Shown one piece after another: positions 34,112-63,045 of a stretch of DNA of 64,000 nt. The stretch is from Methylomonas sp. AM2-LC (lineage in GTDB: Bacteria > Pseudomonadota > Gammaproteobacteria > Methylococcales > Methylomonadaceae), in NCBI RefSeq assembly GCF_039904985.1, contig NZ_CP157005.1:868001-932000 (forward strand). Direction: 5' to 3'. The first letter of the stretch is position 1, and every line of letters begins with the position of its first letter. Made by a program: the position numbers and the translations under genes. The notes below the pieces were generated by a model that saw nothing but the letters and a program-made list of their open reading frames with translations, did not search any database and was not told where the DNA came from.

Positions 34112-34196
34112 GCCGATGTGGTGAAATTGGTAGACACGCCATCTTGAGGGGGTGGTGACGCAAGTCGTGCCGGTTCAAATCCGGCCATCGGTACCA
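34112..34196 (+). tRNA. tRNA-Leu(GAG)
   Basis: 85 bases with encoded CCA. The acceptor stem GCCGATG pairs with CATCGGT. The anticodon stem CCATC/GGTGG has loop TTGAGGG, giving anticodon GAG at 34146-34148. The long variable arm is that of a class II leucine tRNA. The T arm has GTTCAAATC. It is probably co-transcribed with secG. Its 3' end is the inferred integration site of the element that follows. Confidence 0.97.
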
Positions 34197-34240
34197 ATAC
34201 AGAAAAATGCATCATGTAGCATGGTGTGTAATCTTAAGTC

Positions 34241-34272: not shown

Positions 34273-34337
34273 CCGCTTTACCGTTTTTATGTAACCGTGT
34301 AGCATGAAATGCAATTAAATTGCATCAAAATTGCATC

Positions 34338-35315
34338 ATGGCTAGTTATCAAAAACGCGGAAAATCCTGGTTTGTCCAGGTTCGAAAAAAAGGGGTCACA
34401 AAGTGCTCGACTTGGCCGACTAAAGCCCAAGCCCAGGCTTGGGCTGCTCAAACTGAAATAGAAATTCTTTCAAAGGATGATAAGCCATCATTACCCGACA
34501 AAACTTTACTGGATGCAATTGAACGCTATGAAACTGAGGTTACTCCAAAAAAGCGGAGTGCACGATGGGAAATCATAAGATTTAATGTTTGGAAAAAATT
34601 GGCAATAACCAACTTACCAGTGTCGGAAGTGACCACGCCTGTTTTGGCAAAATGGCGAGATAAAAGGTTAACCGAGGTTTCTTCCGCTACAGTTAACCGT
34701 GAAATGAATTTGTGGAGTGCTCTGTTTGAGTGTGCACGCAGAGAATGGCAGTGGGTAGAATCAAATCCAGTTCATGATGTCAGACGGCCTCCCCAGCCTA
34801 GGCACCGAGAACGTCTATTTGCTGAATATGAAGTTGATCAAATTTGTTTGGCGCTTGGATATCAGGGTACAGAGGTTGTTACCAAGAGCCAGATTATTGC
34901 GTGCGCTTTTTTGTTTGCTCTTGAAACAGCGATGAGGCGTGAAGAAATTACTGGTCTTGAGTGGAAGCGAGTTAATTTAAAAAAACGAATCGTAACATTA
35001 CCGCTTACAAAAAATGGGGATGCTAGAGATGTCCCTCTGTCTTCCCGTGCAGTGGAGTTGTTGACTACCCTTGCAGACCATCCTCGCCCATTCGATGTTC
35101 ACAAAGATGTTCTCTCCTCGCTGTTTAGGAGGGCATGCATAGACTGTAAAATTGAAAATGCACATTTTCATGATGCAAGAGCAACGGCACTAACTAGATT
35201 AGCAGGAATTTTAAATATGCTGGAATTAGCTAGAATGGTAGGTCATAGAGATATAAGATCATTGCAAATTTATTATCGTGAAAAAGCTGAAGATTTAGCA
35301 AAGAAATTAGGATAG
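34338..35315 (+). CDS. int: Tyrosine site-specific recombinase (ICE integrase)
   Basis: 325 residues from ATG 34338 (MASYQKRGKSW is a usual start for this group; the TTG at 34320 is less likely). The N-terminal arm-binding and core-binding domains are followed by the catalytic domain with R (AMRREEITGLEW, near 199), H-x-x-R (HDAR, near 278), GHRD and the nucleophile in QIYYRE (Tyr 312 or 313). It integrates and excises the element at tRNA-Leu. Its position right at the tRNA, read away from it, is typical. It converges on the AlpA-like gene. Confidence 0.93.
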   Translation: MASYQKRGKSWFVQVRKKGVTKCSTWPTKAQAQAWAAQTEIEILSKDDKPSLPDKTLLDAIERYETEVTPKKRSARWEIIRFNVWKKLAITNLPVSEVTTPVLAKWRDKRLTEVSSATVNREMNLWSALFECARREWQWVESNPVHDVRRPPQPRHRERLFAEYEVDQICLALGYQGTEVVTKSQIIACAFLFALETAMRREEITGLEWKRVNLKKRIVTLPLTKNGDARDVPLSSRAVELLTTLADHPRPFDVHKDVLSSLFRRACIDCKIENAHFHDARATALTRLAGILNMLELARMVGHRDIRSLQIYYREKAEDLAKKLG

Positions 35316-35345: not shown

Positions 35346-35633
35346 TTATTTTTTAATGGATCTTTTTTCACGCTGTCTTTCAGCCCAACTCTCAACTTCA
35401 CTTGGTTTCCAACGCGGAACACCGCCATCAATGCGAATAGCAACAGGAAAGTCAGGTCGGGAAACAATTTTTCGTGAAACTGTGCTTCTGCTAGTTTGGA
35501 AGTAATCTACCAAATCATCAATAGACCAAAGTTTATTTTTGCGCTGACCCGATTTAAGTACCGTGAGTATTTCTGATAATAAATTCTCTACAGCATTGGT
35601 GGGTTCTTTAGAAATTAAATTATTATCCGACAT
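35346..35633 (-). CDS. AlpA-like helix-turn-helix protein, candidate excisionase
   Basis: 95 residues from ATG 35633 (a TTG at 35642 would add three). The core LWSIDDLVDYFQTSRSTVSRKI...DFPVAIRIDGGVPRWKPSEVESWAERQ is a winged-helix MerR/AlpA-type DNA-binding domain. Such proteins serve as recombination directionality factors or integrase regulators on genomic islands. It is tail-to-tail with the integrase, 30 bp apart, which supports this. Function is inferred. Confidence 0.8.
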   Translation of the reverse strand: MSDNNLISKEPTNAVENLLSEILTVLKSGQRKNKLWSIDDLVDYFQTSRSTVSRKIVSRPDFPVAIRIDGGVPRWKPSEVESWAERQREKRSIKK

Positions 35634-35765
35634 TAGTTTCAAAATTATTTTAATAAATATTGTTAATTAATTTCATTTTCCGAATTTCAAACTTTGGTTT
35701 CTGGCTTCACGAACATTCTCTTTGATCGTCAACTAGCGACCTGAACAAAGAAATTTATTATTTTT

Positions 35766-36344
35766 TTAAGTCGATGAAATCCAGCGCCGGCGGCCAGTAC
35801 TATCGGTCCAGGTTTCGCAAATTGGGCATTTATCAAACAACTCATCTTTTTTGTTAACGATTAAGTGTCGAGCTTTACATTTTTGGCAAACGGTAAAACC
35901 TAATTCAAGGGTTTTGAACTGCTGGATGATTTGCCAGGCGCGGTTGATATCCAGCACTCTGAAATTTTCGAAATTCTGTTCACGCCTACTAGGCTTTGAA
36001 TTATTGGCGACCACCCGGCAATAAAGCCCGTAGGCATTTACAAACTGCTTACCGTATTCGACATTGGAAGTTGCACAATTCAAATGGCCATGAATAATGC
36101 CTAAAAAAATTGAGGCATGCAGGTTGTTGACCGATGAACGGATAATCCAATGATCATCCCAAGGCAGCAAGCCCTTTTTGGGTGATTCTTGATTTGCGAT
36201 CTTATAAATGCGTATCGCCGTTTTTCTGCTAATAGCACATAAATGACAGACCATATGAGTTCTGGCTCCCAATGCAAACAGCTTTTCGGCAAGCATTAGT
36301 TCAGCTCCAAATTTCGACAAATCAACAAATCCAGCATTACTCAT
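35766..36344 (-). CDS. FlhC-like transcriptional activator (pair 1)
   Basis: 192 residues from ATG 36344 (AAGGA eight bases upstream). ATG 36353 is the alternative. It follows the FlhC pattern: LGARTHMVCHLCAISRKTAIRIY, then KKGLLPWDDHWI and NNLHASIF, equivalent to the KGMLPFSTDWF...NVHASMF region of E. coli FlhC. A C-terminal zinc site of two CxxC motifs (CQKC and CPIC) is intact. The 5' end overlaps the FlhD-like gene by 8 bp, indicating translational coupling. FlhD and FlhC form a heteromeric activator. On SXT-type ICEs and IncA/C plasmids the equivalents (SetCD, AcaCD) switch on transfer, so that is the inferred role, not flagellar control. Confidence 0.85.
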   Translation of the reverse strand: MSNAGFVDLSKFGAELMLAEKLFALGARTHMVCHLCAISRKTAIRIYKIANQESPKKGLLPWDDHWIIRSSVNNLHASIFLGIIHGHLNCATSNVEYGKQFVNAYGLYCRVVANNSKPSRREQNFENFRVLDINRAWQIIQQFKTLELGFTVCQKCKARHLIVNKKDELFDKCPICETWTDSTGRRRWISST

Positions 36345-36627
36345 AAACAGCATCCTTGTTCTGGCTTTGATCTGTGTGGATTAGCAACGCCGCATAAGCC
36401 GTGGTTGAAGCTTCGAACTGGCCAATTGGCAACAAAGTGATTACAGCCCGGTTAATAGATGACTGGTTTTTGATTTCCTCCATAGACAATGCGGCAAATT
36501 CAGAAATTCGGTCTGGATCTAAACCAAATCGCCATGCGGCTTCCATGGGATTGCTTCTGGCGCATTCTCGAGCCAGCATCAGGTACTCAAAATTTAATTG
36601 CGTCAGATCTTCTTCTAAAGTCGACAT
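36337..36627 (-). CDS. FlhD-like transcriptional activator subunit (pair 1)
   Basis: 96 residues from ATG 36627, chosen because AGGA lies six bases upstream (ATG 36642 has none). The FlhD pattern is clear: LTQLNFEYLMLARECARSN, then AAWRFGLDPDRISEFAALSMEEI, matching the helical dimerisation core of FlhD. It is cotranscribed with the FlhC-like gene and diverges from the transglycosylase operon that holds the second pair. Confidence 0.82.
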   Translation of the reverse strand: MSTLEEDLTQLNFEYLMLARECARSNPMEAAWRFGLDPDRISEFAALSMEEIKNQSSINRAVITLLPIGQFEASTTAYAALLIHTDQSQNKDAVYE

Positions 36628-36934
36628 GTTTTTTCCTGCCATTAGTTATGAATTTGGTGGCTATGCTAATGGAATAAATTGGTAATCGTCACGCACGCAA
36701 AGTGACCCTTTTGGGTCAGATTTCGTGCAAAGTCTTACCGGACGTGGCTTTCAGAGGATTAGATTGATAATTGATGTCGGTTTAAATATAACGTATTGAT
36801 TTTGTTTGAAATAAATGAATGCAGTAAAAATTTAACAAGTAAATAGGTCGATTAGGGTCTTTTTTTGAACGATTGAAGTATGGATTTTTTCAGTAAACTC
36901 ATGTCATCAACACAAAGTTTCAAACGCCATTGCT
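36628..36934. promoter_or_regulatory. Divergent promoter region with TGACCC palindrome
   Basis: This 307-bp gap separates the two divergent activator operons. It contains a perfect palindrome TGACCCTTTTGGGTCA (36703-36718), a plausible operator. Just after it, CTTACCGGACGTGG (36734-36747) is nearly the same as CTTGCCAGACGTGG at 56421-56434 next to the iteron array. Individual promoters cannot be assigned. Confidence 0.6.
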
Positions 36935-37621
36935 ATGAAAGATTTAACTCACCCTTTTTTCGTGACAGAAATCCGCATTTTGAAAAATCACTTTAGGTCG
37001 ATACTTGCCAATAATCTCTCGGCAATTATTTCTATCTCGTTTTTGTTCGGTGCAGTATTAAGTCAGCCTTGCTTAGCGCACCCAAATGTGGCTTTATCGA
37101 CAACACCACTTCCGGAAAATCAGCTTAATAAACCGAGATTTTTGCCAACAAAATTGCAAAATACCCTTTGGTGGCAAATAGCCAAACAGCATGAACTCGA
37201 TCCCTATATTCTTTACTCAGTAGCATTAATCGAATCGGCTAACAGTGGTGGTACGACAAAAATCACACCATGGCCTTGGGCTATCAACAAATCTGGGAAG
37301 TCTATCCAATCTGATACTCGACCTCAGGCACATGCCATTTTGAAAAAATCCATTGCCGAAGGTAATCGGCATATCGATATTGGATTAATGCAAATTAATC
37401 TTCACTGGCATGGAAATCGTGTCGGTAAACCCGAGGATTTATTAGACCCAGTTACCAATCTGAAAATCGGTGCCGGACTATTGGCGGAAGCGATTCAATC
37501 TTCGCCTAATGACCTTGTGATGGGAATTGGTCGATACCACAGTTGGGAAAACATTCCGGCTGCCATGTTATACGGACGTCGGGTTCTTGCCTTGGCGGAA
37601 CAAATCAGGAATGTGATTTGA
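36935..37621 (+). CDS. Lytic transglycosylase (VirB1/Slt-like)
   Basis: 228 residues with an N-terminal hydrophobic export segment (about 27-50, ending QPCLAHP). The SLT domain has the catalytic Glu in YSVALIESANSGG (near residue 104), IDIGLMQINLHWHG and DPVTNLKIGAGLLAEAI, then GIGRYHSW. Such enzymes open peptidoglycan locally for assembly of a conjugation apparatus. It is first in an operon with the second FlhD-like gene (10 bp after its stop) and FlhC-like gene. Confidence 0.9.
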   Translation: MKDLTHPFFVTEIRILKNHFRSILANNLSAIISISFLFGAVLSQPCLAHPNVALSTTPLPENQLNKPRFLPTKLQNTLWWQIAKQHELDPYILYSVALIESANSGGTTKITPWPWAINKSGKSIQSDTRPQAHAILKKSIAEGNRHIDIGLMQINLHWHGNRVGKPEDLLDPVTNLKIGAGLLAEAIQSSPNDLVMGIGRYHSWENIPAAMLYGRRVLALAEQIRNVI

Positions 37622-37631
37622 GAGGTGATTT

Positions 37632-37943
37632 ATGGATGAAGATATCTACAACCTACATTTAGATTACCTAATCTTGGCGCAGAAGTTGGTGCTGGCAGGC
37701 ATGGAACATAAAGCTATGTTCAGTCTTGGTTTAACGCAGGAAGCTGTCGCGATACTAAAAAAACTACCCTCCTATCAATTAAAAAATATTGCTCGCAAAG
37801 AGATTCTTTCATTTACTCCAAGGTTCAGCGCAGCCAACTGGAGTAGTTATCTTCATAATGAAAAAATCGCCCCTGATCAGGATGCAACTGAGATTCGTGC
37901 ACGAGAGTTTTTAAAACTTATGCCCAGCCCAAATACAAAATGA
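37632..37943 (+). CDS. FlhD-like transcriptional activator subunit (pair 2)
   Basis: 103 residues. The start region IYNLHLDYLILAQKLVLAG, then HKAMFSLGLTQEAVAILKKLPSYQLKNIA, lines up well with E. coli FlhD (IYDINLSYLLLAQRL...[23 protein letters not shown]). It is closer to FlhD than the pair 1 protein is. It overlaps the following FlhC-like gene by 4 bp (ATGA). Ribosome site GAGAGG is close upstream. Confidence 0.87.
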   Translation: MDEDIYNLHLDYLILAQKLVLAGMEHKAMFSLGLTQEAVAILKKLPSYQLKNIARKEILSFTPRFSAANWSSYLHNEKIAPDQDATEIRAREFLKLMPSPNTK

Positions 37944-38548
37944 TGAAAACGCGCTATTTCTATGAGGACCATCTTCGAGATCATTATTTTGCCTATGAAC
38001 TTTTAAAGCGAAAATTACGCACTTCCTATGTCAAAGCACAAATTAAATCCATAAGTACTCGTGAGTTACGTTATATTTATCGCTCAATCCATCAAAAAAG
38101 ACCTCAGTCTGGTCAAATCCAGATTGTCACCACCATCCCGATTTGCCGAGAATCTTTTCTTTATTTGGCATTATTTGTATCCATTTTCCAAAGCACCAGC
38201 CTAGCAGATACTCAGTCACAATTGGACGTGTCAGCAATCATTTTTGCGTGGGATACATTCTGCCAAATTTTTCCGGATCATATTCGGGATAAACGGCCAT
38301 TTGGGAAAATTCGTCCAGCTAATTTCAATGAGGCGTGGGTGATCATTCAAAGTTTAAGAAAAGGACTAGTGGAATTGCAATTCTGCACTACATGCCGCCA
38401 TAATTATTTAATTGTGCACAACTGCCAATTCACTTCGGTATGTCAAGTATGTGAGCTGGATAAAGCCAGAAAAGCTTCACTAAACTCTATCTCAACCCTT
38501 TTAAAATACCCAAAAAGAACTATTTCAGGCCTTTTAATTGCCGAGTAA
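37940..38548 (+). CDS. FlhC-like transcriptional activator (pair 2), diverged
   Basis: 202 residues. The N-terminal part (YELLKRKLRTSYVKAQIKSI, STRELRYIYRSIHQKRPQSG) matches the FlhC helix-turn-helix region. The C-terminal zinc site is kept (CTTC and CQVC). The middle differs: the KGLLP..W segment of FlhC is replaced by QIQIVTTIPICRESFLYLALF. It is translationally coupled to the FlhD-like gene. A second complex alongside pair 1, mixed heteromers or antagonism are all possible. The following 245 bp up to 38793 hold no convincing gene. Confidence 0.8.
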   Translation: MMKTRYFYEDHLRDHYFAYELLKRKLRTSYVKAQIKSISTRELRYIYRSIHQKRPQSGQIQIVTTIPICRESFLYLALFVSIFQSTSLADTQSQLDVSAIIFAWDTFCQIFPDHIRDKRPFGKIRPANFNEAWVIIQSLRKGLVELQFCTTCRHNYLIVHNCQFTSVCQVCELDKARKASLNSISTLLKYPKRTISGLLIAE

Positions 38549-38793
38549 AATTCCAGCCAGCGAGACCTAAAGAGTGCGCGCTTGTACTTGACCCTACCTG
38601 CGATGGCGGTATAGCGTATCTGGAAACTGAGCTCGCTGCCGCAACTCTCAAACGGAGCGAAATACATAGTTCGTATCCAACCTAATTTGTATTCGGCTTG
38701 TATTGCTCATCCCTCGAATAGTAAAATCAGCCTGCATTTTACTTACTATGGGTAATCAGAACCCTGAATTCCGGACACATTGAGGGTTTATTT

Positions 38794-39072: not shown

Positions 39073-39083
39073 TTCCAATGAGT

Positions 39084-39608: not shown

Positions 39609-39696
39609 AGACATCCGCTCTATTTCAGGCGCAGAGTAAGTATTTATTACCCTTACACGTCTTATTTAAAAAACCAATGCGTTTTCTTAGCGTCTA

Positions 39697-43598: not shown

Positions 43599-43603
43599 TC
43601 TCC

Positions 43604-48379: not shown

Positions 48380-49000
48380 ATGTCAATTTACTTAAAATCA
48401 AGCCAACAGCCCAAGCTATCAAACCGGTTTCTTCATACTGAACCGGCAAAGTCTATCTATAGCGGTCATCACGCCACAGTCAATTGTGAATGCTGTAATC
48501 GGACTATGGTTCCCAGAGTGGTCAGTTATTACGGTCAGCCACTGAAATCCTTTTGTCCATTTTGCGGAAGTACATTCACAAAATTCCCAACAGGTTTTAC
48601 TCGATTCATACGGGGGAGATATCCAGATATCCAGTCATTTTCCGTTTTTAAAAAACTTGCAGCTATAACAATCTGCTTGGTATTGCTATGGTTTGTTGCT
48701 GATTGGGGCAATCTCTCAGATAACATCAGCTTGTTTGCAGGATTCGGAACTGCATTTTTTCTTGCTATGACATTAGCTGAATTGGTTTTTCAAGGAATTG
48801 AACGTTTAGCGGCCAAGTTTTTGCATAAAAGTAACTACTACTGGGCATTATTGGTATTGGGAGCAATGATAATTGCCCATGAGCGTCGGGCGCTTGCAGG
48901 CTATGTCGCTGTATTTTTCATTATGATTATTGCTCGTGGTTTTGTTGCTGCGTTTCTTCAGAATCGAGAAAAACATAAAAAACCACATTTCAATAATTGA
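48380..49000 (+). CDS. Zinc-ribbon membrane protein of unknown function
   Basis: 206 residues. The N-terminal cytoplasmic part holds a probable zinc ribbon (CECC near residue 36 and CPFC near 60). Three to four transmembrane helices follow (about 91-106, 115-135, 150-165, 170-190). I do not recognise a family. It converges on traG and overlaps its 3' end by 11 bp. It is bordered by receptor 2, so it may be ICE backbone at the end of the cargo. No function can be assigned. Confidence 0.7.
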   Translation: MSIYLKSSQQPKLSNRFLHTEPAKSIYSGHHATVNCECCNRTMVPRVVSYYGQPLKSFCPFCGSTFTKFPTGFTRFIRGRYPDIQSFSVFKKLAAITICLVLLWFVADWGNLSDNISLFAGFGTAFFLAMTLAELVFQGIERLAAKFLHKSNYYWALLVLGAMIIAHERRALAGYVAVFFIMIIARGFVAAFLQNREKHKKPHFNN

Positions 49001-52000
49001 TCAGTCCGCGAGCTCGATTGTATTGGCCTATTTGGTCAATCAGATCACTTCTGTTTTGACCAGCGGCGCTTCTTAATAATTTAGCGATATTGTTGCCATC
49101 ATGGTCGCCTTCTTCATTAAGTAATTGTTGCTTGGCTTCGCCCAAACTGCCAATATTTTCACTACTCACAGCAACCCCGGCAAAGGTTTCATACATTGCG
49201 GCACGATAATAAGCTTGTTGACTTGGTGTAAGTCTGTCAGCTATTTTATTTACTCGTTGATCAGCCCAGGCTTGTGTAGCTTGAGAGAATCCGGGATAGG
49301 ATTGGGATGCAGCATATTTGAAAGCATCCCATTTTTCAGCGCCTTTTGATCGGGCCTCATCGTAACTATCATTGAACTGTTTTAAGTATTCATGGCCGGC
49401 AGAACCTAAGGCTTCAAGATTTTTGGCGGTACTGTAAACTCCACCACCTATGTAGTTATATGATGCCTCTGCTGCTGACGGTGTATCGTTTGCCGCCGCA
49501 GCAATAGACGCCCTAAAATGTTCTGCCTTAATATTGGCCAGTTCACCAAAGCCTTGTCTCGATTCCTGATCGATGGCATTCAAATTTTGATCGTGATGCG
49601 CTTCAATTGATTTCTTGCCGACTGCAATTTTACCGCTGGTACTGTGAATCTGACCCTGCGCCCGATGGCTGACACCTTCGGTTTCATGCCTTGGATCGGA
49701 AAGATTAGCCTGCTGAACCATCGATTGGACTTTACCAATTTTAGGCACTTGGCTTGTAAGGTTTTCATTTTGACTGGGATTCCTATTTGAATCAGCTTTC
49801 GGCGCATTGAATGCATCCCCCAATAACTGGTAACCAGCTATTTCAGCGTTATGTGATTGCTGGCTATCCAATGTCCGATAACTCGGCGATGAGAATCCGG
49901 TTAGTAATGACATGCCTGCTGCCACATAAGCCTGATCACCATTGCTAATCCAGCCTGCCGCTTTCCATTGCGACGCTAGGCGTTGGGCGTCTCCCCTAAG
50001 ACCATATTGATCCAGGGTTTGATCAAGATGTTCCATCAGCTTTGGATCATTCGCAATTTTGTATCCAGTTTCTGCCGCGCCGAAACTGGCTTGTGAACCG
50101 AAACGTTGTTGTGCCGATACGGTTTTCTGATAAGTTTCGGATGCGGAAACAGCATCGGTGGCGCTATGTTGCAGGGATGATATTGATTGGCTCTGCAAGC
50201 CCATGGATGCAACGTTTCGCGTACCAGACTGGGCATCTAGAGCCAAGCTTTTGGCGAGGCCTGCCTGATAACCCTGGCTGTCGTTGACGGTTTGGGTAAT
50301 ATCGGCCGCAATGGAATCGGATTTGTCCTTGCCAACTTTAAAATCATTCTGCAAACGTCCCGAGATCGCAGCCCCCAGTCTTTCATCAGACATTTTTGCG
50401 GCGGCATTGGCGCTGCCGGCCACCAGCGCCGAAAAGTGATCCGCCGATATACCAGTATCGGCATGCCTTTTGGCAAAAGCTTCACCAAACTGCCGATTAT
50501 AAGCATCGGTATGACTGGAGCTGCTGGCGATTTGTTTTCCCAAAGAGTGACTATCAAACGCATCGTTGGTGATGCTACTGGATTTGGACGCCGTTGACGA
50601 CAAGCTATTCATGAAACTACTGCTGGCTTGTTCGGAAGCGCTGGAAGCGGAAGAGACCGCCGCGCTCATATCCTTGCCTGCTGTAAAGCTTGGCAGGACT
50701 TTATCGCTGCCGGTCTGGGTGACCGCCGACAACGGACTGTATTGATGTTGGGGATGAGCATTCAAGACTGGCGCCGGACTCACTACGTCGGGTGTGGTGA
50801 TTTTTTCATTGGCATAATCACCACCATCCATCCGTCCCAGAAAATGCGTTGTAGTCACTGCACCTCGATAAATCAGCATCAAGGAAATCGCCGGTGTCGA
50901 AGCCGCCAACATGCCACCGATTGAGAGCCATTGTTGCAACTCCATGTCCATCTGGTAAATACCCATCATGGAGGGCAAATTGTAATTGGCCGCCGTCAAC
51001 GCTGACATTTTGCCAGCCGCCGACATATTGATGAACAAATTAATCACCGCCAGGATAGGCATCCAGAGCTGTATCCATAACAACATCGAGAAATAGCCGA
51101 TGTTCATGCGTATACCGACACTGCCAAACAGCACTACAAACCCCATAATTGGTGCAATCGCATAGCTCAATCCCTCGATAAACGCCATCATCGGCCGGAC
51201 GATTTTCGAGAACAAAGTCTGTTCCGCCGCCCATTGGGTATTGCGTTGCTGGATGGCTTGTTCGATCATGGAGGCTTTGGTCCAGTGCAGACCATCTTCA
51301 TGCCTGCCGATGACGCCTTGTTCAAACATCGGCATAATGGCCGACATCAACATGTAATTGCTGGCGTTGACCACTCCTGGTCCGGCCAAAGCGTCAAACG
51401 CATCCTGAATTTTCGGTACCGCATCTGCGGCAGCTGGCACACCTAAAATCTGTTGTAACTTGGTTTCCAACGCTGTGCTGAAAGCGCCATTGGCCATCAC
51501 GCCTAAAGCCGTCCAGGCATCGGTGCACGTCAGGGTTTGCGGTTGACCGCCGACATAGATTTCGGTCATGTAAATGTCGGAGTCGAAGCGAATGGCATTG
51601 AGCGGATCGGCATCGCGCAGAATGGCGTCAATGGCTTTCAGATTCAAATCGACCCCGGTCAGTGTACATTCTTTGACGTAATTGGCGAAAGAGCTTTCCA
51701 TGTCGCTGCCGGCCACCGGTGCATTGGCTGCGCCTAAACCAACACGGGATAACAAATTCTTCCGAACGGCGGTCAAGGTTTGCAGGGTATCGGCAAAACC
51801 CTTGCCGGTCATGGTCGGCATCCCGAAAGCCTGTTCAAACATGCGTGTGGTACGGTAACCCATATTCGACATCACACTGCCAACCGCTGCCGGCCCCAGT
51901 GGTACATTATCGACCACCACTACACTACCGGTATAGGCATCCTCAATACTGACCTGGACTGACGGCGCATACAACATCAGCCACAGCACATACGCCAACA

Positions 52001-52187
52001 ACAAATCCTGATAGCGTATCCCTTGACCATCAAACTGCATCAAGGCTCGTAGCATGATGATGATCACCCCGATCACGCCACCGACGGCTGCGGCAGTACG
52101 GTAATCGCCGGTTCCGGAAATCATCGACACCGCATTCAACACCGCTTGCAGATAGGCCGAATCGCCCACCGAGAAAATTTCAAACAT
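48990..52187 (-). CDS. traG: F-type conjugation protein TraG (mating-pair stabilisation)
   Basis: 1065 residues, close to F and SXT TraG lengths. The N-terminal half is a TraG_N-type membrane domain with several helices (about 35-60, 330-370, 375-400, 435-455) and the segment GYFSMLLWIQLWMPILAVINL. The C-terminal half is a long Ser/Ala/Gln-rich, largely helical periplasmic region (many SSASSASEQ, SGS and DAYNRQFGEAFAKRHADTG stretches). In F, TraG acts in pilus assembly, mating-pair stabilisation and entry exclusion recognition. It is the last gene of traF-traH-traG, starting 53 bp after traH. Confidence 0.9.
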   Translation of the reverse strand: MFEIFSVGDSAYLQAVLNAVSMISGTGDYRTAAAVGGVIGVIIIMLRALMQFDGQGIRYQDLLLAYVLWLMLYAPSVQVSIEDAYTGSVVVVDNVPLGPAAVGSVMSNMGYRTTRMFEQAFGMPTMTGKGFADTLQTLTAVRKNLLSRVGLGAANAPVAGSDMESSFANYVKECTLTGVDLNLKAIDAILRDADPLNAIRFDSDIYMTEIYVGGQPQTLTCTDAWTALGVMANGAFSTALETKLQQILGVPAAADAVPKIQDAFDALAGPGVVNASNYMLMSAIMPMFEQGVIGRHEDGLHWTKASMIEQAIQQRNTQWAAEQTLFSKIVRPMMAFIEGLSYAIAPIMGFVVLFGSVGIRMNIGYFSMLLWIQLWMPILAVINLFINMSAAGKMSALTAANYNLPSMMGIYQMDMELQQWLSIGGMLAASTPAISLMLIYRGAVTTTHFLGRMDGGDYANEKITTPDVVSPAPVLNAHPQHQYSPLSAVTQTGSDKVLPSFTAGKDMSAAVSSASSASEQASSSFMNSLSSTASKSSSITNDAFDSHSLGKQIASSSSHTDAYNRQFGEAFAKRHADTGISADHFSALVAGSANAAAKMSDERLGAAISGRLQNDFKVGKDKSDSIAADITQTVNDSQGYQAGLAKSLALDAQSGTRNVASMGLQSQSISSLQHSATDAVSASETYQKTVSAQQRFGSQASFGAAETGYKIANDPKLMEHLDQTLDQYGLRGDAQRLASQWKAAGWISNGDQAYVAAGMSLLTGFSSPSYRTLDSQQSHNAEIAGYQLLGDAFNAPKADSNRNPSQNENLTSQVPKIGKVQSMVQQANLSDPRHETEGVSHRAQGQIHSTSGKIAVGKKSIEAHHDQNLNAIDQESRQGFGELANIKAEHFRASIAAAANDTPSAAEASYNYIGGGVYSTAKNLEALGSAGHEYLKQFNDSYDEARSKGAEKWDAFKYAASQSYPGFSQATQAWADQRVNKIADRLTPSQQAYYRAAMYETFAGVAVSSENIGSLGEAKQQLLNEEGDHDGNNIAKLLRSAAGQNRSDLIDQIGQYNRARGLINY

Positions 52188-52240
52188 GGGCTACCTGTCT
52201 TACACTGAATAAAGAAAAATACATACCGATTTTTGTGCAG

Positions 52241-53677
52241 TTAAGGGCTTGGCCAGGCTGCGGCAGTTGCAGGGAGCTGAGTTACCGAACCATACTGGCG
52301 AGGTTTTACGGTGTTCATCAGTTGCTGATAAAACGCCATCAAGGTTTGCGGATTGCCGTAACGGCCGGCGATAGTGACGTATTCGTCCTGTATCTGTTCG
52401 CGGGCGACTCGCAATGAATCCATCAGCAACTTGGCGTAAGCATGGTCATTCATTTGGGCGGCAGCCTGTACTGCACTCAGGGTATCGTTGACGATTAATT
52501 GCGCCATTTCCAAAGCGATTACCGGTGCTGCTTCTTCCGCCCATAGTTTGGCAATTCCAGCATCTTCACGAGCCAGGTTATGAATCATGCCGCCAATCGC
52601 ATCCGGCACGGTTTGCATGAAGGCTTGTTCGGTGGCTGTGATGGCGCCGGTATTGGTCGAAAATTTATAGATCAGACCGTTGCCGGTATCGGCTGATCCA
52701 AGCAGAATATCCATCACCCGCTGTTTCAATCCGATCAGATTGAGGTTTTGGACGATGGGTTTAAGACATTGATCGGCGCCATGACCATCTGAGCAGGTGT
52801 ACATATTCACGGTTTGATAGCTATTGCCGGCATCGTTACCGTACATCAAGTCTTTGATGCTCAGAATCGGTGGCGGACCGCTAATGGCATTGTTTTCGCC
52901 CTTGCCGTCCGGAGCAGCTTGCGGCGCATCGACGATCACCGTACCGGAGATACTCATGACCGCTTCCAGCAAGCTATTGCCGCCAAATCGAAACCAGGCG
53001 CCTGCGTTTTGATTAACCAAGGCTCGCCAGACCAGATTGCCCTGGATTTTTTGCGTCAGGTCATTGGGTGAATTTTGTTTAATCTGCTGCATCGGATCGC
53101 CCAGTGTACTGGTATTGGTCCAGCTGGAAAACACATCGCTGATACCTTGGGTAAACGAAGCATTGGACAGATTGGCTTTGCTCTGTAAATCGAAGGCCTT
53201 GACCGTGTCGTTCACCAAACCCTGAGACAAACGGCAAGAATTGCTGAACATCTGGTTCATTTCCTGAATTTTCTTTTGCAGATCGGTCATCACCGAAGCA
53301 CACCAGGGACACATCGCGCCGACCGCTAGCTGGAACGCATAGCCCGCAGCATTGCCGGCGACGTTACGCAGTAATTGCACGAATTGATTGAAGTTGATAA
53401 AGCTGAAACTGCCTCCAAAAAGATCGATGCCACCACAACCGGCGCTGAACGAGGGCGGCACAAACGACACCAGATTGGTATTAGTAATCCCATTGCGAGC
53501 TACCAGATTGCCTCCGGTAATGACACCCCGGCGTTGACCCAAATGCGCGGTCGGCGCGGTGAAATTAGTCATGGTGCCAAACATGCCATCCATTTCCTGT
53601 TGTAAGTCGGCATAGGCTGGTACCGAACTCTCAACCAGCAGCAGAAAAATAACCAATCGCCTATACGAAAAATTCAT
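52241..53677 (-). CDS. traH: F-type conjugal pilus assembly protein TraH
   Basis: 478 residues with a Sec signal peptide (cleavage after PAYA, about residue 23). The TraH hallmark is the region LGQRRGVITGGNLVARNGI, then FVPPSFSAGCGGIDLFGGSFSFIN, followed by AMCPWCASVMTDLQKKI. C-terminal coiled-coil stretches are present. TraH is a periplasmic/outer-membrane component of F-like systems. It overlaps the traF stop by one base (TAATG), so the two are translationally coupled. The several cysteines fit with TraF being a disulfide-handling partner. Confidence 0.93.
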   Translation of the reverse strand: MNFSYRRLVIFLLLVESSVPAYADLQQEMDGMFGTMTNFTAPTAHLGQRRGVITGGNLVARNGITNTNLVSFVPPSFSAGCGGIDLFGGSFSFINFNQFVQLLRNVAGNAAGYAFQLAVGAMCPWCASVMTDLQKKIQEMNQMFSNSCRLSQGLVNDTVKAFDLQSKANLSNASFTQGISDVFSSWTNTSTLGDPMQQIKQNSPNDLTQKIQGNLVWRALVNQNAGAWFRFGGNSLLEAVMSISGTVIVDAPQAAPDGKGENNAISGPPPILSIKDLMYGNDAGNSYQTVNMYTCSDGHGADQCLKPIVQNLNLIGLKQRVMDILLGSADTGNGLIYKFSTNTGAITATEQAFMQTVPDAIGGMIHNLAREDAGIAKLWAEEAAPVIALEMAQLIVNDTLSAVQAAAQMNDHAYAKLLMDSLRVAREQIQDEYVTIAGRYGNPQTLMAFYQQLMNTVKPRQYGSVTQLPATAAAWPSP

Positions 53678-54672
53678 TATTGGATGCTCCCGGTTTGCGC
53701 GCTTTGCTGCAAGGCTTGAATCAATGACAGAGGATCTTGAGCGGTTGTTGGACTGATGCTGCCAGCTGTTGGCAGCAACATCGGCGTAGAGCGGATACCC
53801 TGTGTGGTTTGATACTGGGAAGGCTCTATCCAGCCGGCTTCTTTGCCTGCCAGCAAAATCCGGCTGGTCATTTCCTCCAGTGACAGCACGCCTTGCGATA
53901 ACGGCACGATTTGCTTAGGCGGATTCATAAGGAACAGCGCCGGTGTCTGCTCAACCCCAAGCAATGCCGCCTGTCCTTTGTCGAGCTTGAAGTTTCCGAA
54001 CAATCCATTCGGCATCGGTAATCCATCCAGTGAAACCGCATAGATTTTGAAGCCATAGGCTCTTTCCAGCATGCTCAAGATCGGTGCCTGCACATGGCAA
54101 TACCGACAGTCCGAGCGGAAGAAAAATAAAATGCCAATATGTGCTGCAATGTCTTTCAATGCCCGATCTGCGGCTACGCCAGCTTGATGATTCGCTTCAT
54201 TGGCGGCAAAGGTTGAGATTGGACGGCGAACGGTTTCATCCAGTTGCGGATCGGACATCACCACATAACGGGCGGCGTTGGTAAACCGTTCGGCCTTGTC
54301 CATCATTACCCGTTGCAGGTAATAAAACGCCGCTACATTCTCCTGAGTTGGCTCATCAATGGCCTTGTTCAGGTAACGTTCCATGTTTTGCTTAAGCCAG
54401 ACGGAAGACAAGGGTGCGGGTTCAACAGGCATTTCGCGGGTTTCTGGTTTAGGTGGCTTCTCGGCAGATATTGGCGGTTTTGAGTCTGGAATGGCGGATT
54501 CAATGGGTTTTTTCGTGATCGGTTCCGGCTGAACTTCATACCAAAACCAACCGCGTTGTTTGTCTTCGAAGTACGAAACGCGGGGTAAATCTGTGCTGTC
54601 CTCTCCCCAAGCTTTTAGGGCTGGGAAGGTAATAAAAATCAGGATAAGCAAATAGGCGTGAGTTCGGTTCAT
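53677..54672 (-). CDS. traF: F-type conjugal pilus assembly protein TraF (thioredoxin-like)
   Basis: 331 residues with a signal peptide (about 1-22, ending ALKAWGE). A linker rich in Pro and Lys leads to a thioredoxin-like domain with CRYC (near residue 200; region ILFFFRSDCRYCHVQAPIL) and a cis-Pro segment VEQTPALFL. In F-type systems TraF is a periplasmic protein of the pilus assembly machine; this copy keeps both active-site cysteines, which F TraF lacks. It is first in the traF-traH-traG operon, which starts from the intergenic region carrying the palindromes at 54706 and 54777. Confidence 0.9.
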   Translation of the reverse strand: MNRTHAYLLILIFITFPALKAWGEDSTDLPRVSYFEDKQRGWFWYEVQPEPITKKPIESAIPDSKPPISAEKPPKPETREMPVEPAPLSSVWLKQNMERYLNKAIDEPTQENVAAFYYLQRVMMDKAERFTNAARYVVMSDPQLDETVRRPISTFAANEANHQAGVAADRALKDIAAHIGILFFFRSDCRYCHVQAPILSMLERAYGFKIYAVSLDGLPMPNGLFGNFKLDKGQAALLGVEQTPALFLMNPPKQIVPLSQGVLSLEEMTSRILLAGKEAGWIEPSQYQTTQGIRSTPMLLPTAGSISPTTAQDPLSLIQALQQSAQTGSIQ

Positions 54673-54705: not shown

Positions 54706-54743
54706 ACTTGCAAAAAATCGCTAATTACGCATTTTTTGCAAGT
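54706..54743. promoter_or_regulatory. 38-bp palindromic operator candidate, site A
   Basis: Arms ACTTGCAAAAAATCG (54706-54720) and GCATTTTTTGCAAGT (54729-54743) are separated by 8 bp. Thirteen of 15 positions pair. Same geometry and sequence as sites B (54777) and C (58044). It lies 34 bp upstream of the traF start codon. Confidence 0.75.
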
Positions 54744-54776: not shown

Positions 54777-54814
54777 CCTTGCAAAAAATGACGAAAAACT
54801 TATTTCTTGCAGAA
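54777..54814. promoter_or_regulatory. 38-bp palindromic operator candidate, site B
   Basis: The core arms TGCAAAAAATGA (54780-54791) and TTATTTCTTGCA (54800-54811) are separated by 8 bp, the same spacing as A and C but with weaker outer positions. Its centre is 71 bp from site A's centre. Confidence 0.6.
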
Positions 54815-55180: not shown

Positions 55181-55651
55181 ATGCTCGAAACAAATGAACT
55201 TAGCACACCACACACTGAATCGGATCAGGCCGTGATCGAATGGCTGGAGACCAACATAGAGCTCTTGCATAACCAAGCGAAGATGCTGGTTGACGATTAC
55301 TGGCGACGGGTCAATAAGGAGCGAAAGCAATATCCCTCATCGGAACGTGGCCGAATTGGGGTGCGGATTCGAAGGCGGGAGCAAAGTTATTCATTTGCCA
55401 TCGAGTGGTTTGTCATGACCTCGGTGTTTGTGAATGGCCGATACAAACCGATGGCTCAACACCTCAAAAAGGGCAAGGGATTTCGCTATCCTATGCAATG
55501 TATCCTGAAAACCGAGCCTGACTGGGAAGCCAAACTGGTCGAAGAGTTCGAAACCGAGTTCGTGGAGATTCGTAAGCAGGTCGACTTGCTGGGAAAGTTT
55601 CGGGACGTTTTTTATCAATGCCGACGCTGCATGTTGGAACGTAGGTTATGA
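55181..55651 (+). CDS. mobI: MobI-like conjugative transfer protein
   Basis: 156 residues, highly charged, no membrane segment. The order of an N-terminal helix (VIEWLETNIELLHNQAKMLVDDYWRRV), a basic central part (GRIGVRIRRREQSYSFAIEW, then KKGKGFRYPM) and the C-terminal helices (EEFETEFVEIRKQVDLLGKFRDVFYQCRR) resembles MobI of SXT and IncA/C plasmids. MobI is needed with TraI for processing at oriT. Its position downstream of a repeat-rich non-coding region facing traF supports this. Recognition is by pattern and context, so moderately sure. Confidence 0.68.
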   Translation: MLETNELSTPHTESDQAVIEWLETNIELLHNQAKMLVDDYWRRVNKERKQYPSSERGRIGVRIRRREQSYSFAIEWFVMTSVFVNGRYKPMAQHLKKGKGFRYPMQCILKTEPDWEAKLVEEFETEFVEIRKQVDLLGKFRDVFYQCRRCMLERRL

Positions 55652-56665: not shown

Positions 56666-57532
56666 TTAGTGAGGTTTGCCGTTCAGAAAGCGTTGTTGGC
56701 TGGGGGTTGGATGCTTTTTGATCTTGACTGAATCTTCCGTGACCTCAAAGCTTTCCAAATTTCCGATGGCGATCAGCGCTTCCAGGGCTTTTCGCAAACG
56801 GTATTTGAAGTCACGAAGCGTTTTGGCGCCACTGCCGCTCAATCGGTGAATGGTGGTGATTTTCAGTGGGTAGGGAGCGGCATGTGATGATAAAAATCCA
56901 TGCAGCCATAGGGCAAGCGGTTGTTTGCGTAACTTTTGGCGTTGCTCAAACTCAATGTAGGTGTAACCGTCTTCGAACAAATGCAGCATGGATTCGGTCA
57001 ATTCGACGACATAACGCTGAGTCATTTCATCTCGGTGATAACGCAAAAATCCTTTTTCACCGAACGTATCACGGCCGTTGAAGGTGATTTCCACAAAGGC
57101 GCCGCCCAGCCTGGCCATAGATTCCTTCAGCCATTCATGCTGGCTTTTGCCAGTGCCTTTACCCAAAGACGACAACATGGCGTATGCGCTGAACGTCACG
57201 CTAAATCCCGGCAACTGCTGTCTGGACAAATGCACAATTTGCATCCACACATCCAGGTCGGACTGATTGAGTTGCACGCCCAAATAACGTACTTCAATGC
57301 CGTCCACAGCTGCCAGTAAAGTGCGTTTTTTGTAGGCGATGCGCTCATTACCCTGGATGCCGGCAAACAAGGCGCTACGCAAACAAGCGTTGGGTGTACC
57401 GCGCATACTGGCCGGCCAACTGGGTACAGCTTTCAGCGGTTCGACTACTTTTAGCCGGGCTTTTTTACGCTCCGAAAGTGTTTGAAAACGTTCGGTCAGA
57501 TTGTCTATCGATTGAAATTGTGAGTCTTCCAT
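56666..57532 (-). CDS. trfA: TrfA-like plasmid replication initiator
   Basis: 288 residues from ATG 57532 (GAGG six bases upstream; the in-frame GTG at 57538 is possible). It follows RK2 TrfA throughout: WPASMRGTPNACLRSALFAG, then VDGIEVRYLGVQLNQSDLDVWMQIVHL, GKGTGKSQHEWLKESMARL, LRKQPLALWLHGFLSSHAAPYPLKI, and the end KHPTPSQQRFL. TrfA proteins are winged-helix initiators that bind iterons and open oriV. The iteron array is 6 bp beyond its stop codon. On an integrated element this suggests extrachromosomal replication after excision. It is cotranscribed with the upstream lipoprotein-like gene. Confidence 0.9.
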   Translation of the reverse strand: MEDSQFQSIDNLTERFQTLSERKKARLKVVEPLKAVPSWPASMRGTPNACLRSALFAGIQGNERIAYKKRTLLAAVDGIEVRYLGVQLNQSDLDVWMQIVHLSRQQLPGFSVTFSAYAMLSSLGKGTGKSQHEWLKESMARLGGAFVEITFNGRDTFGEKGFLRYHRDEMTQRYVVELTESMLHLFEDGYTYIEFEQRQKLRKQPLALWLHGFLSSHAAPYPLKITTIHRLSGSGAKTLRDFKYRLRKALEALIAIGNLESFEVTEDSVKIKKHPTPSQQRFLNGKPH

Positions 57533-57539
57533 AGACACC

Positions 57540-58043: not shown

Positions 58044-58081
58044 ACTTGCAAGAAATGCGTTTTTCGGCATTTTTTGCAAGT
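58044..58081. promoter_or_regulatory. 38-bp palindromic operator candidate, site C
   Basis: Arms ACTTGCAAGAAATGC (58044-58058) and GCATTTTTTGCAAGT (58067-58081) with an 8-bp spacer; 14 of 15 positions pair. The right arm is identical to that of site A. It lies between the divergent lipoprotein-trfA operon and traI, 28 bp before the traI start. Confidence 0.8.
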
Positions 58082-58109: not shown

Positions 58110-60587
58110 ATGGCTATGGAAAACATTTTCACATCATTCATCGTTGGTATCGGCAAACGCTTGTTGGGCGGTGGCGAGGTATTGCCCAAGGCTGTGGTCA
58201 CTAACCAGGATGAGGAAATTCCGCGCTATCCGCCGTTCATGAAAGGACTGCCTGCAGCACCGGTGAATCGGATTTTGTCCACACAAACTGAGCTTATTAA
58301 ATCCATCGAACAAGCACTTGCCTTGCCCGATGATCTATACCAAGCCATTGCTTTGCCGGTCATCGGCCGTTATGCAGCCTATAGCCATCTATTGCCGGCA
58401 TCGGAGAGTCATCATCACCGAGGCGCCGGCGGTTTGTTTAGGCATGGTTTGGAGGTGGCACACTGGGCAACATTGGCCTCGCAAGGCTGTTTGTTCGCCA
58501 CCCAGGCTACCCCCAAAGAACGTAAAGCTTTAGAACCTCGTTGGCGATTGGCGGTGTGTTTTGCCGGTTTGCTGCATGATATCGGTAAACCCGTGTCGGA
58601 CATGGCGGTGGTGGACCAACTGGGACATCACACCTGGAATCCCTGCGATGAAAATCTAACCGACTGGGCTGAGCAGAATAAAATCGATCGCTATTTCTTG
58701 CGCTGGCGGGAAAACCGGCATAAACGTCATGAGCAGTTTTCGGCGTTAGTGATTGAACGGGTGCTGACGCGAAAATCTCGAACCTACATCCTGGAACCCG
58801 GCCCTGACATCATGCAGGCGATGCTGGAAACCATACATGGTCTGGACAGAGGGGCAAAATTATACGAGCTGGTGATTGAAGCAGACCGCAAAAGCGTGGA
58901 GCGGGATCTGAAAGCGCATTATCACGGCCTGGATTCGGCGATGGGCATGCCAGTGGAAAAATACCTGTTCGACGCCATGCGCCGTTTGATTAAATCGGGA
59001 CAATGGACTGCGAATGAAAGTGGCGCCCGCGTCTGGCGATTCCAGGAGGGGTTGCATATCGTTTGGCGCTTAGCCGTGAAGGAAATTCTGGGCATGTTGG
59101 ATAAAGATCATATTCCCGGCATTCCCCGTGACGAAGATACACTGGCTGATATTCTAATCGAGCGTGGTCTGGCCATTCCCAAAATCTCAAAAGGCGGGCA
59201 ATACCGTTACTGGCGCATGCAGCCGGGAGGTATGAATGGCAGCTTGTTTATGCTGAGGTTGGCTTCAACAGAATTAATTTACAGTGGCGAACCGCCCGTG
59301 GTGGTGATTGGTCAGGAAGTTTTAGACGGAGAGGATGTTCAAGAACCGGCCAAAACAAAAAAAGTCGGTAAAAAACGCGAGTCACTACCAGAACCCGTCG
59401 TTCCAGCGATAGTTGAGATTGAAGCGGCTGCTGTCGAGCCGATGGATGATGATTACCTGAATTCAGAGAACTTTGATGATGGGTATCCAGCGTATTTCGA
59501 TAGCGACATCAACCTTGACCAGAAAGTACAGTCCGAGGCCGACAATAGGTTGCCTGTTCCAGAACAAACGCTATCTGCAGTGCAATTTCAATCTGAAACT
59601 GAAGTCGCTAAAACACCGATCCAGGATGAATCTACCCCAAGCAATACAGTCATTCATCTCGATGCCGATCAGCCATTCGAAGCTGTCAATTCTATTACTG
59701 CCGCTAGAAGGTGGCTGGAAAACCAGGGACTTGCAGGTGAATGGCTGATTAAGCTTGCCGAAGCGATCAATTCAGGATGTTGGCATTTAGAGATGGATTT
59801 TTTGGACGCACAAAACAAATTGCTATTGCCGTTTCCGGGAACTGCACAACAGCTTCAGCTTGAATCTAATTTGTTTATCAAAACCCTGGATGAAAAAGGC
59901 TGGCTGCTGACCGACGTATTGTCACCTATGCGCAAGGTTCAGGTAATCAATGGCATTCGTGGCGTGCAGTTAGCTTCGGAGCCGAGCGTAAAACTTAAAC
60001 AGCTTCTAACCGCTGTAAAGCCTAAAGCCGTCAGATCAGATGATCAGCCCGAAACCGTTCAACCTGCAAAGCAAGGTAAATCCAAACCTAAAATTCTGCC
60101 TGAGATTGTGGAGAAAAATGCTCTCCCAGAACGGCAGTCTCAGTTGGAATTGCCGGACACAATGTCGGAAATGCCAATGCAAAATCAGGAAATTGACAAA
60201 AATCCAGACGAGACTGCAACCAACGACGCATTAACGAAAATCGCCGAACAACCTGCAAAGACAGCTAAACCTTCATCTATACCCTCCAAGTCCAAACCGG
60301 ACTCGGATAAACTTAAAAAGTCCTTATCCAGGAAAGAAAAAAAAACACAGCTAATCCAACTGCATGGACTAGCCATCAAAACCTGGATAACTGAAATAGA
60401 ACAATCCTCATCTCAATCACCAGTATCCGATTCTGATGAGGGCTGGTTTAAAATTGATGACCAGGAAATTGAAAGATTACTGCAGAAAACTCCAGGCCTA
60501 AGCAGAATTGATTTAATGCTGATGCTGGGTGCACAACCGAATTTGCGTAGTGTCAGTAATGGCTTACAAATGCAGCGGAAAACATGA
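58110..60587 (+). CDS. traI: MobH-family relaxase TraI
   Basis: 825 residues. The N-terminal TraI_2 domain has the MobH metal-binding motif SHHHRGAGGLFRHGLEVAHW (about 99-118) and the HD motif LLHDIGKP (near 155). A Lys/Glu/Pro-rich linker follows (about 405-540, with the repeated KTKKVGKKRE type). A second TraI_2_C-like domain lies near 545-640 (RRWLENQGLAGEWLIKLAEAI). A basic tail ends it. MobH relaxases nick oriT and pilot the DNA strand. Start ATG 58110 or 58116. It overlaps traD by 4 bp and begins the traI-traD-membrane-protein operon behind site C. Confidence 0.93.
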   Translation: MAMENIFTSFIVGIGKRLLGGGEVLPKAVVTNQDEEIPRYPPFMKGLPAAPVNRILSTQTELIKSIEQALALPDDLYQAIALPVIGRYAAYSHLLPASESHHHRGAGGLFRHGLEVAHWATLASQGCLFATQATPKERKALEPRWRLAVCFAGLLHDIGKPVSDMAVVDQLGHHTWNPCDENLTDWAEQNKIDRYFLRWRENRHKRHEQFSALVIERVLTRKSRTYILEPGPDIMQAMLETIHGLDRGAKLYELVIEADRKSVERDLKAHYHGLDSAMGMPVEKYLFDAMRRLIKSGQWTANESGARVWRFQEGLHIVWRLAVKEILGMLDKDHIPGIPRDEDTLADILIERGLAIPKISKGGQYRYWRMQPGGMNGSLFMLRLASTELIYSGEPPVVVIGQEVLDGEDVQEPAKTKKVGKKRESLPEPVVPAIVEIEAAAVEPMDDDYLNSENFDDGYPAYFDSDINLDQKVQSEADNRLPVPEQTLSAVQFQSETEVAKTPIQDESTPSNTVIHLDADQPFEAVNSITAARRWLENQGLAGEWLIKLAEAINSGCWHLEMDFLDAQNKLLLPFPGTAQQLQLESNLFIKTLDEKGWLLTDVLSPMRKVQVINGIRGVQLASEPSVKLKQLLTAVKPKAVRSDDQPETVQPAKQGKSKPKILPEIVEKNALPERQSQLELPDTMSEMPMQNQEIDKNPDETATNDALTKIAEQPAKTAKPSSIPSKSKPDSDKLKKSLSRKEKKTQLIQLHGLAIKTWITEIEQSSSQSPVSDSDEGWFKIDDQEIERLLQKTPGLSRIDLMLMLGAQPNLRSVSNGLQMQRKT

Positions 60588-62410: not shown

Positions 62411-62412
62411 CC

Positions 62413-63045
62413 ATGCAACGGAACATTCTGGTCAGTTTGATGATCTGGTTATTGGAAATCATCCTGGTAGCCGGTTTTGTATCCGATGAATGGACCAGGG
62501 AAATTCAAGCCGTTGAAGACAAAATGCTGATCGACTACTTTGGAAAGGAAAAAGACGCCGAGATCCGCAAAACCACGCAACACTGGTTCGACAAGTTTTT
62601 CGTCAAAACCGGTATCCGCGAAAATGTCTACCATTACTTTATTCCGACTGAACGCGAACGGCAAATGTCCAAGGGGTTTGAGGATGTCGGCCGGCATGAT
62701 CTTTTCCCTTTTATTCAGAGCCGGTTAGATGTGCTTTGGGATACGGTTTATCAGATGATTAAACGCTTCATCATGGCCTGTATTTGGTTTCCGTTTTTGG
62801 CGGTTACTTTGTTGCCATTCTGTATTGACGGCATCGTCAGGCGCAAAATAAGCCAGACCAACTTCGATTATCCAAGTCCCATGGCGCATCGTTATAGTCT
62901 ATATGCGATTTTGGGAGCCCTGTATTTACTGTTTGTTGGCGTGACGCTGCCTTTTCCGGTACCACCTCAATCGGTTCCGGTTGGGGTCATCATCGTGGCT
63001 TGGGCAACTAATGTGCTGTTGGCTAATACTCAGAAGCGAATTTAG
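62413..63045 (+). CDS. ICE integral membrane protein (PFL_4697-like)
   Basis: 210 residues. A membrane-anchor N-terminus (VSLMIWLLEIILVAGFVSDEW) leads to a charged region (about 25-95), then three helices (about 113-135, 155-178, 182-203). It looks like the conserved ICE membrane family found immediately after traD in PFGI-1 and SXT-like elements. Its biochemical role is unknown. It completes the traI-traD operon; no terminator is seen. Confidence 0.75.
   Translation: MQRNILVSLMIWLLEIILVAGFVSDEWTREIQAVEDKMLIDYFGKEKDAEIRKTTQHWFDKFFVKTGIRENVYHYFIPTERERQMSKGFEDVGRHDLFPFIQSRLDVLWDTVYQMIKRFIMACIWFPFLAVTLLPFCIDGIVRRKISQTNFDYPSPMAHRYSLYAILGALYLLFVGVTLPFPVPPQSVPVGVIIVAWATNVLLANTQKRI

Follow-up and report, generated by a model that had tools for sequence, protein, structure and literature searches.

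The window, a 64,000-nucleotide (nt) stretch of Methylomonas sp. AM2-LC DNA (GCF_039904985.1, NZ_CP157005.1:868,001-932,000, forward strand), contains part of an integrative and conjugative element (ICE) that features three pairs of FlhD-like and FlhC-like genes, here called alpha (pair 1), beta and gamma (pair 2). Alpha and gamma are divergent neighbors in the window (Table 1), and beta is located further along the element. The three pairs probably form a control system of SXT/IncC-like (MOBH, MPF_F) elements in Methylomonas and its relatives, with gamma as the transfer activator. Gamma, beside the conjugation genes, seems to have changed in step with the DNA sites that precede those genes. 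FlhDC-type activators of conjugative elements have so far been described as single master switches. The literature comparisons on activators, here and below, are drawn from the available parts of PMC4207636, PMC4344509, PMC4542580, PMC5058578, PMC7423338, PMC10838148, and PMC8527097; in these accounts the SXT, IncA/C, and Rts1 elements each have a single FlhDC-type pair, as the original prediction from this DNA had stated for the first two. Among the matches listed in the open-access literature, no paper was found that reports two or more FlhDC pairs per element, that treats DUF4325 together with FlhC, or that deals with these Methylomonas ICEs.

The Alpha and Gamma Pairs

The original prediction described alpha and gamma as divergent FlhDC-like pairs that keep the zinc cysteines of FlhC, and both claims were borne out. 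All four open reading frames (ORFs) pass the Pfam cut-off of 27 bits for the FlhD and FlhC families (PF05247, PF05280), alphaD barely, and all window genes of the alpha/gamma set are open frames. AlphaD scores 156 bits against its class profile, which has the alphaD sequence itself among its seeds, and its conserved start is probably MSTLE at 36627; start positions are approximate because ORF calling was mechanical. The zinc cysteines are invariant in 22 of 22 aligned proteins, and the FlhC fold is kept along with all four of them; the structure models are of single chains. In the PDB, both FlhC proteins match E. coli FlhC best by sequence, with E values of 1.4e-8 (pair 1) and 1.9e-4 (pair 2), and C. 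necator FlhC second. DNA binding by a D-C heteromer is a property of the FlhD/FlhC family and is predicted for these pairs. The suggestion that the pair 2 FlhC lacks a central FlhC-typical segment was not supported, and a gammaC without its center was rejected.

The 307-base pair (bp) control region between alpha and gamma, proposed to be shared by the two pairs, is real and partly conserved, but such sharing is confined to the window and six fetched loci. Pattern searches found no tra-type box inside this region. Scans of the region gave 6 sigma-70 promoters vs 8.9 in shuffles and 4 terminators vs 2.6 in shuffles. A perfect palindromic box, TGACCC-AAAA-GGGTCA, is located upstream of alphaD, and a pattern search places relatives of it at 15 of the 27 alpha loci. 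This box was rejected as a tra operator because it occurs once in the element; its resemblance to the published core site GCCCAAAATGGGC of AcaCD, which activates tra promoters, is a lead only. In 23 of 25 loci, L083 being one example, the slt promoter contains a TAAACTC/TAGACTC/TAAACTA element (~36850-36900 in the window), and many slt promoters also have an upstream inverted repeat, CGAAAAACCGC-N7-GCGGTTTTTCG.

The Beta Pair and the STAS-FlhD Fusion

The count of two pairs stands for the window, whereas the unit on the element consists of three. A profile search of the whole genome gave 11 FlhC and 7 FlhD matches, and the beta pair belongs to the same element as alpha and gamma. BetaC scores 57.3 bits against the FlhC profile (cut-off 27). 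The N-terminus of betaD matches the STAS-like DUF4325 (27.5 bits, cut-off 23), and its C-terminal FlhD half scores 26.1 bits, slightly below 27. The AlphaFold model of betaD (199 amino acids (aa), mean predicted local distance difference test score 77.9) retrieves solved FlhD with a probability of 1.0 and a best E of 4.4e-3; the structure search with the STAS half returned weak matches (RsbS, SpoIIAA), none at E <= 0.001. In the window's element beta is absent behind alpha and is found ~90 kilobases (kb) off, near the right end, and no alphaD or alphaC remnants precede its betaD except cross-matches to beta. STAS-FlhD matches covering both halves occur in ~34 of 201 genomes of the order Methylococcales (two partial or split). 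In samples of 369 class and 299 phylum genomes the fusion was present in the window's own genome only, and a search over 5.8 billion proteins gave 36 clusters, of which the four organism-named ones are Methylomonas, Methylobacter, or Methylococcaceae. Within these searches the fusion was found only in Methylococcales.

Related genes are located elsewhere in the same genome. A second element has alpha-beta-xis-int at C1:4.697-4.701 Mb and gamma at 4.786 Mb, and a beta-only relic at C1:4808375-4809435 (L016:9363-10579) features an HU gene, C-terminal fragments of alphaC, and open betaD and betaC. On the plasmid-sized C2 (288757 bases), an alpha-beta operon is located at 38610-40737 and a further beta pair, apart from it, at 124440-125508.

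The tra Boxes

A family of dyad boxes is present at the tra promoters, with three members in the window. The dyad CTTGCAAAAAAT-N12-ATTTTTTGCAAG (0-3 mismatches) is located twice in the traF-mobI gap, before traI, before traE, and at C1:997043. A whole-genome search with the core pattern (<=2 mismatches) found five places, all on this element, and the reversed control pattern had 0 matches in the genome; a sixth match, given by the search that located the dyads above and not by the core pattern, is in a coding region with a spacer of 4 and 4 mismatches and was omitted. Judged from their sequence and position, these conserved 36-bp dyads may be activator binding sites. The box at C1:997043 is a perfect one in front of a gene with no Pfam match near the right end (C1:996314-997027, L012:5314-6027), which may therefore belong to the transfer regulon.

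Other dyads are found at traF, traI, and traE in the elements of genomes G026 and G016. Across 24 elements a 12-N-12 dyad is located at the same place before traI, with a spacer of 12 that is one base off in the element ICE2. The arms agree at >=9 of 12 positions in 23 of the 24 elements, compared with 27 of 4800 shuffles, and at >=11 of 12 in 20 of the 24, compared with 0 of 4800, where the shuffles preserve base composition only. The half-sites fall into about seven types by the authors' sorting. Neither the half-site nor the family search detected a tra box in ICE2 or G021, and the ICE2 box is seen only at the fixed place. Boxes of coexisting elements differ often, not always. The elements were matched to their alpha/beta and gamma loci by hand, using order and orientation; G025 TraD 1821255 (no clear alpha) and 1382763 (interrupted betaC), G003 C3, and many-contig genomes were left out.

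The Pair That Probably Reads the tra Box

The distance between boxes was compared with the distance between proteins across the 24 elements. The highest correlation is that of gammaC (rho = 0.911), followed by slt (0.872), gammaD (0.851), trfA (0.820), alphaC (0.812), and traI (0.800), with betaC (0.784), betaD (0.732), and alphaD (0.715) lower. The partial correlation of gammaC is 0.59-0.81 with any one of eight other proteins fixed (permutation p 0.0005 for the six gammaC partial correlations tested) and 0.51-0.69 in 12 representatives; the other proteins, with gammaC fixed, have 0.14-0.43 and 0.03-0.43, respectively. Recombinant elements act as natural swaps of gamma and box. Elements G021_418k and G006_4208k share 83-87% in alpha and 74-78% in beta, their gamma pairs share 50-52%, and their boxes differ at 6 of 24 positions; G021_418k and G016_1454k share 60-72% in alpha and 82% in gamma, with 1 of 24 box positions different.

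Several observations weigh against the proposed three-pair system with gamma as the activator. Gamma, slt, trfA, traI, and the box are linked, all being on the same side of the element. The distance between gamma and TraD is 13-58 kb in 26 of 27 elements (~25 kb in the 27th, G008, assuming that its single contig is circular), alpha is usually farther away, and the linked slt and trfA also correlate well with the box. With gammaC fixed, trfA keeps 0.43 and betaC 0.30, and betaC has 0.43 (p 0.007) in the 12 representatives. The boxes of ICE1 and G006 are 5/24 apart, yet their gammaC proteins are 48% identical, and those of ICE1 and G014 are 6/24 apart with gammaC at 44%. The traI arms of G027_702k agree at 7/12 only, though its traF arms agree at 11/12, and the comparison of the ICE2 box is shifted by about one base. 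In the FlhC tree described below, gammaC is grouped with neither AcaC nor Rts1 SetC; AcaC is a flagged long branch there, and SXT SetC is absent. Among nine alpha/beta loci viewed, xis/int has no position behind the operon in L066 and L067.

Some of these points fit an alternative, unlikely on the whole, in which the tra box is read by beta or alpha, the role of gamma is to control slt or part of the genes, and the gamma-box correlation results from physical linkage. This alternative is countered by the partial correlations of gammaC, which outdoes the linked traI, trfA, and slt when each is fixed (0.75, 0.76, 0.59), by the fall of traI, alphaC, and betaC to 0.24-0.30 with gammaC fixed, and by G016_1454k and G006_4208k, whose betaC and betaD are 90% and 91% identical, yet whose boxes are 5/24 apart and whose gamma pairs share 51-52%.

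Relationships of the FlhC Proteins

In a tree of 33 FlhC proteins, SXT SetC not among them, alpha, beta, and gamma form separate groups with supports of 96/91, 99/98, and 100/100. AlphaC is joined to E. coli FlhC (98/96), betaC and gammaC are joined to each other (93/90), and AcaC, Rts1 SetC, and other slt-linked plasmid FlhC proteins are placed apart. The alphaC and gammaC of the window's element group with G002/G016 and its betaC with other lineages; the element therefore looks like a mosaic.

The separate groups also bear on the idea that D and C subunits are exchanged among the three pairs to give several complexes with graded or dominant-negative effects and no separate switches, which is improbable. 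The family domains are kept in all three D and all three C proteins, and SGI1 FlhDC acts at AcaCD sites, more weakly, so related pairs can share targets. However, the C proteins of the classes have just ~20% identity to alphaC, and AcaCD is reported not to be replaceable by SetCD.

Distribution of the Module

FlhC matches at E <= 0.001 are present in 26 of 37 genomes of the genus (23 above the cut-off), with up to 11 per genome, and class profiles for alpha, beta, and gamma were built within the analysis. The common layout is alphaD-alphaC-betaD(STAS-FlhD)-betaC in the same direction, with slt-gammaD-gammaC divergent from alphaD or elsewhere in the element. All four alpha/beta genes are present in 34 fetched loci, of which L040 and L053 are the same place and L061 has an interrupted betaC. 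The slt-gammaD-gammaC genes are also present in six of the 34 (L053, L054, L055, L056, L057, L070, two of which are overlapping or near-identical), and in the remaining relatives alpha/beta and gamma are separated by tens of kb. In 7 of the 9 loci viewed (the window, L014, L053, L056, L059, L062, L068), the operon has an AlpA or DUF4224 gene and/or int behind it in the same orientation, with Pfam applied to some of these neighbor genes. The complete alpha/beta order is found in 18 of 25 loci of titled public records, all from methanotrophs or their metagenome-assembled genomes bar one titled Gammaproteobacteria only; of the incomplete seven, L164, L165, L168, and L169 are at contig ends and L161, L173, and L174 are partial or broken.

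A hand tally of 16 genomes of <=5 contigs gave 27 ICE-type TraD, 28 alpha, and 28 gamma copies. The three counts are equal in 14 of the 16, the exceptions being G001 (gamma without TraD) and G014 (one extra alpha). ICE-type TraD is present in 12 of these near-complete genomes, each of which has at least as many alpha and gamma pairs as TraD copies, as well as a STAS-FlhD fusion. The tally excludes plasmid TraD copies (48-69% identical), TraD of G001 and G013 (35% identical), and a split G003 copy, and gamma on G003 C3 was recognized by its FlhD match alone. It is very improbable that the pairs are functionally unconnected leftovers of at least two elements brought together by insertion or recombination: the beta-only relic with alphaC fragments near C1:4.809 Mb and the different kin of betaC would fit, but the divergent alpha-gamma layout recurs in L053/L054, L055, L056, L057, and L070, the TraD, alpha, and gamma counts agree, and the relevant window genes are all open.

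Comparison with Known Systems

The proposed likeness to SXT/IncA/C elements was upheld by an SXT/IncC-like conjugative backbone around the pairs, which is of the MOBH/MPF_F kind found in IncC and Rts1. AcaCD of pVCR94 (IncA/C) likewise belongs to a MOBH/MPF_F element, is encoded in the order HTH-slt-acaD-acaC (HTH, helix-turn-helix), and has FlhD/FlhC Pfam matches as alpha and gamma do. However, it is a single pair, compared with three on the window's element, the N-terminal half of AcaD has no DUF4325 match, unlike betaD, and AcaC matches the pair 2 FlhC weakly (30 bits over 47 residues). The slt-D-C order of pair 2 is that of pVCR94 acaDC, Rts1 setDC, pUP202, pTs417, and pKOX, whereas pair 1 is without slt. 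SetCD (SXT/R391) and Orf246/247 (Rts1) are FlhDC-like activators on the same kind of backbone, with slt beside setDC in Rts1, and again one pair is present, compared with three. The published SXT insertion site is prfC, the mark of the SXT/R391 family proper, whereas the window's element is integrated at tRNA-Leu(gag), and in SXT int and xis are single genes that converge. SGI1 FlhDC together with its helper AcaCD gives two FlhDC-type pairs in one cell with the same sites, but each pair is carried by a different element, and the two are closely related (79%/46% identity for C/D in one account, 89%/67% similarity-type figures in another).

BisDC of ICEclc is an ICE activator with an FlhC-like C subunit and a positive-feedback switch, in which BisC has DUF2857 and BisD a ParB domain. 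It was rejected as a counterpart because no DUF2857 or ParB match was found in the scanned alpha, beta, and gamma proteins (E <= 1 for the window, E <= 0.1 for beta). Flagellar FlhDC (E. coli, C. necator) shares the fold, the zinc cysteines, and the D-C gene order, but the window pairs are located on a conjugative element, and this assignment was rejected on the NCBIfam equivalogs (C, 76 and 31.7 vs 216 bits; D, 25.3 and 38.8 vs 90 bits).

Proposed Mechanism

In the favored three-pair control system, the gammaD/gammaC complex would bind the 36-bp dyad upstream of traI, traF/mobI, and traE and recruit RNA polymerase, as SetCD and AcaCD do. Alpha and beta would add a further operon, alphaD-alphaC-betaD-betaC, which in most cases is directed at xis and/or int. 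Their most likely role would be to decide on excision and to feed into gamma, and the STAS-like domain of betaD would take a signal or a partner protein. The original prediction had raised a two-input, hierarchical, or antagonistic switch as a possibility. The placement of genes and boxes suggests a division of labor, gamma with the tra promoters and alpha/beta with the xis/int end. SetCD is reported to activate int, xis, and tra promoters alike, so splitting these jobs between pairs would be new.

A bolder proposal, put forward tentatively and at less than even odds, is a layered switch in which STAS-gated beta and alpha decide excision and gamma opens the conjugation genes via an element-specific 36-bp code that co-evolves with gammaC. 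Such a code could give related ICEs in one cell partial insulation from one another. With about seven operator types among them, the 24 elements are a natural series for DNA reading by the FlhDC family, and they provide a non-pathogenic system for studying how an ICE separates the excision decision from the transfer decision.

Features of the Element

The tRNA-Leu(gag) gene is located at 34112-34196 in the window, and the repeat of the attL stretch at attR bounds an element of ~104 kb (Table 1). The small HTH gene is downstream of pair 1 and co-directional with it, and genes at the equivalent place in L059, L056, and L062 pass Phage_AlpA in Pfam. Beyond the window, the same element has TraE, TraK, a DsbC-like protein, TraC, TrbC, TraU, and TraN by Pfam.

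Table 1. Positions of features of the Methylomonas sp. AM2-LC element (window positions unless marked C1).
Feature	Position	Strand	Evidence or remark
attL	34174..34197	+	24-base stretch, 3' end of tRNA-Leu(gag)
Tyrosine integrase	34320..35315	+	Phage_integrase 70.5 bits, cut-off 27.1
Small HTH protein, probably AlpA/xis-type factor	35346..35642	-	HTH_17 16.8 bits, below cut-off
alphaC, FlhC-type subunit of pair 1	35766..36353	-	PF05280 79.9 bits; alpha group in tree 96/91
alphaD, FlhD-type subunit of pair 1	36337..36642	-	PF05247 27.2 bits, cut-off 27
Perfect palindromic box	36703..36718	n/a	TGACCC-TTTT-GGGTCA, upstream of alphaD
slt, lytic transglycosylase, first gene of gamma operon	36935..37621	+	PF01464 31.2 bits, cut-off 21.3
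gammaD, FlhD-type subunit of pair 2	37632..37943	+	PF05247 43.3 bits
gammaC, FlhC-type subunit of pair 2	37940..38548	+	PF05280 32.3 bits
traF-traH-traG block	48990..54672	-	TraF 53677-54672, TraH 52241-53677, TraG_N 48990-52187; Pfam
tra box, perfect 12-N12-12 dyad	54707..54742	n/a	traF-mobI gap
Degenerate tra box	54778..54813	n/a	traF-mobI gap, 3 mismatches
mobI	55181..55651	+	PF19456 109.5 bits
TrfA-like replication initiator	56666..57538	-	PF07042 64.3 bits
tra box	58045..58080	n/a	Upstream of traI, 1 mismatch
traI (TraI_2), traD, DUF4400 gene	58110..63045	+	58110-60587, 60584-62410, 62413-63045; Pfam
Beta pair, same element	C1:994086-995191		FlhD 206 aa, then FlhC 158 aa
attR	C1:1006169-1006191		Copy of the attL stretch minus one base

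The TrfA-like gene is located within the tra block here and in the other elements compared, and the excised ICE may therefore be able to replicate. The cargo, at 39069-48138 and past the window end, features several gene sets that look like extracytoplasmic function (ECF) sigma factor, FecR-like, and TonB-receptor genes; the profile test covered the first sigma factor only. Just inside attR, a TOTE-type archaeo-eukaryotic primase gene (339.6 bits) is followed by a helicase gene (C1:1003432-1005857, L012:12432-14857), possibly a defence cassette. Nearby, at C1:1002558-1003348 (L012:11558-12348), a GNAT acetyltransferase gene adjoins a TacA1-like antitoxin gene in what looks like a toxin-antitoxin-like pair, with a RhuM-family gene beside it.

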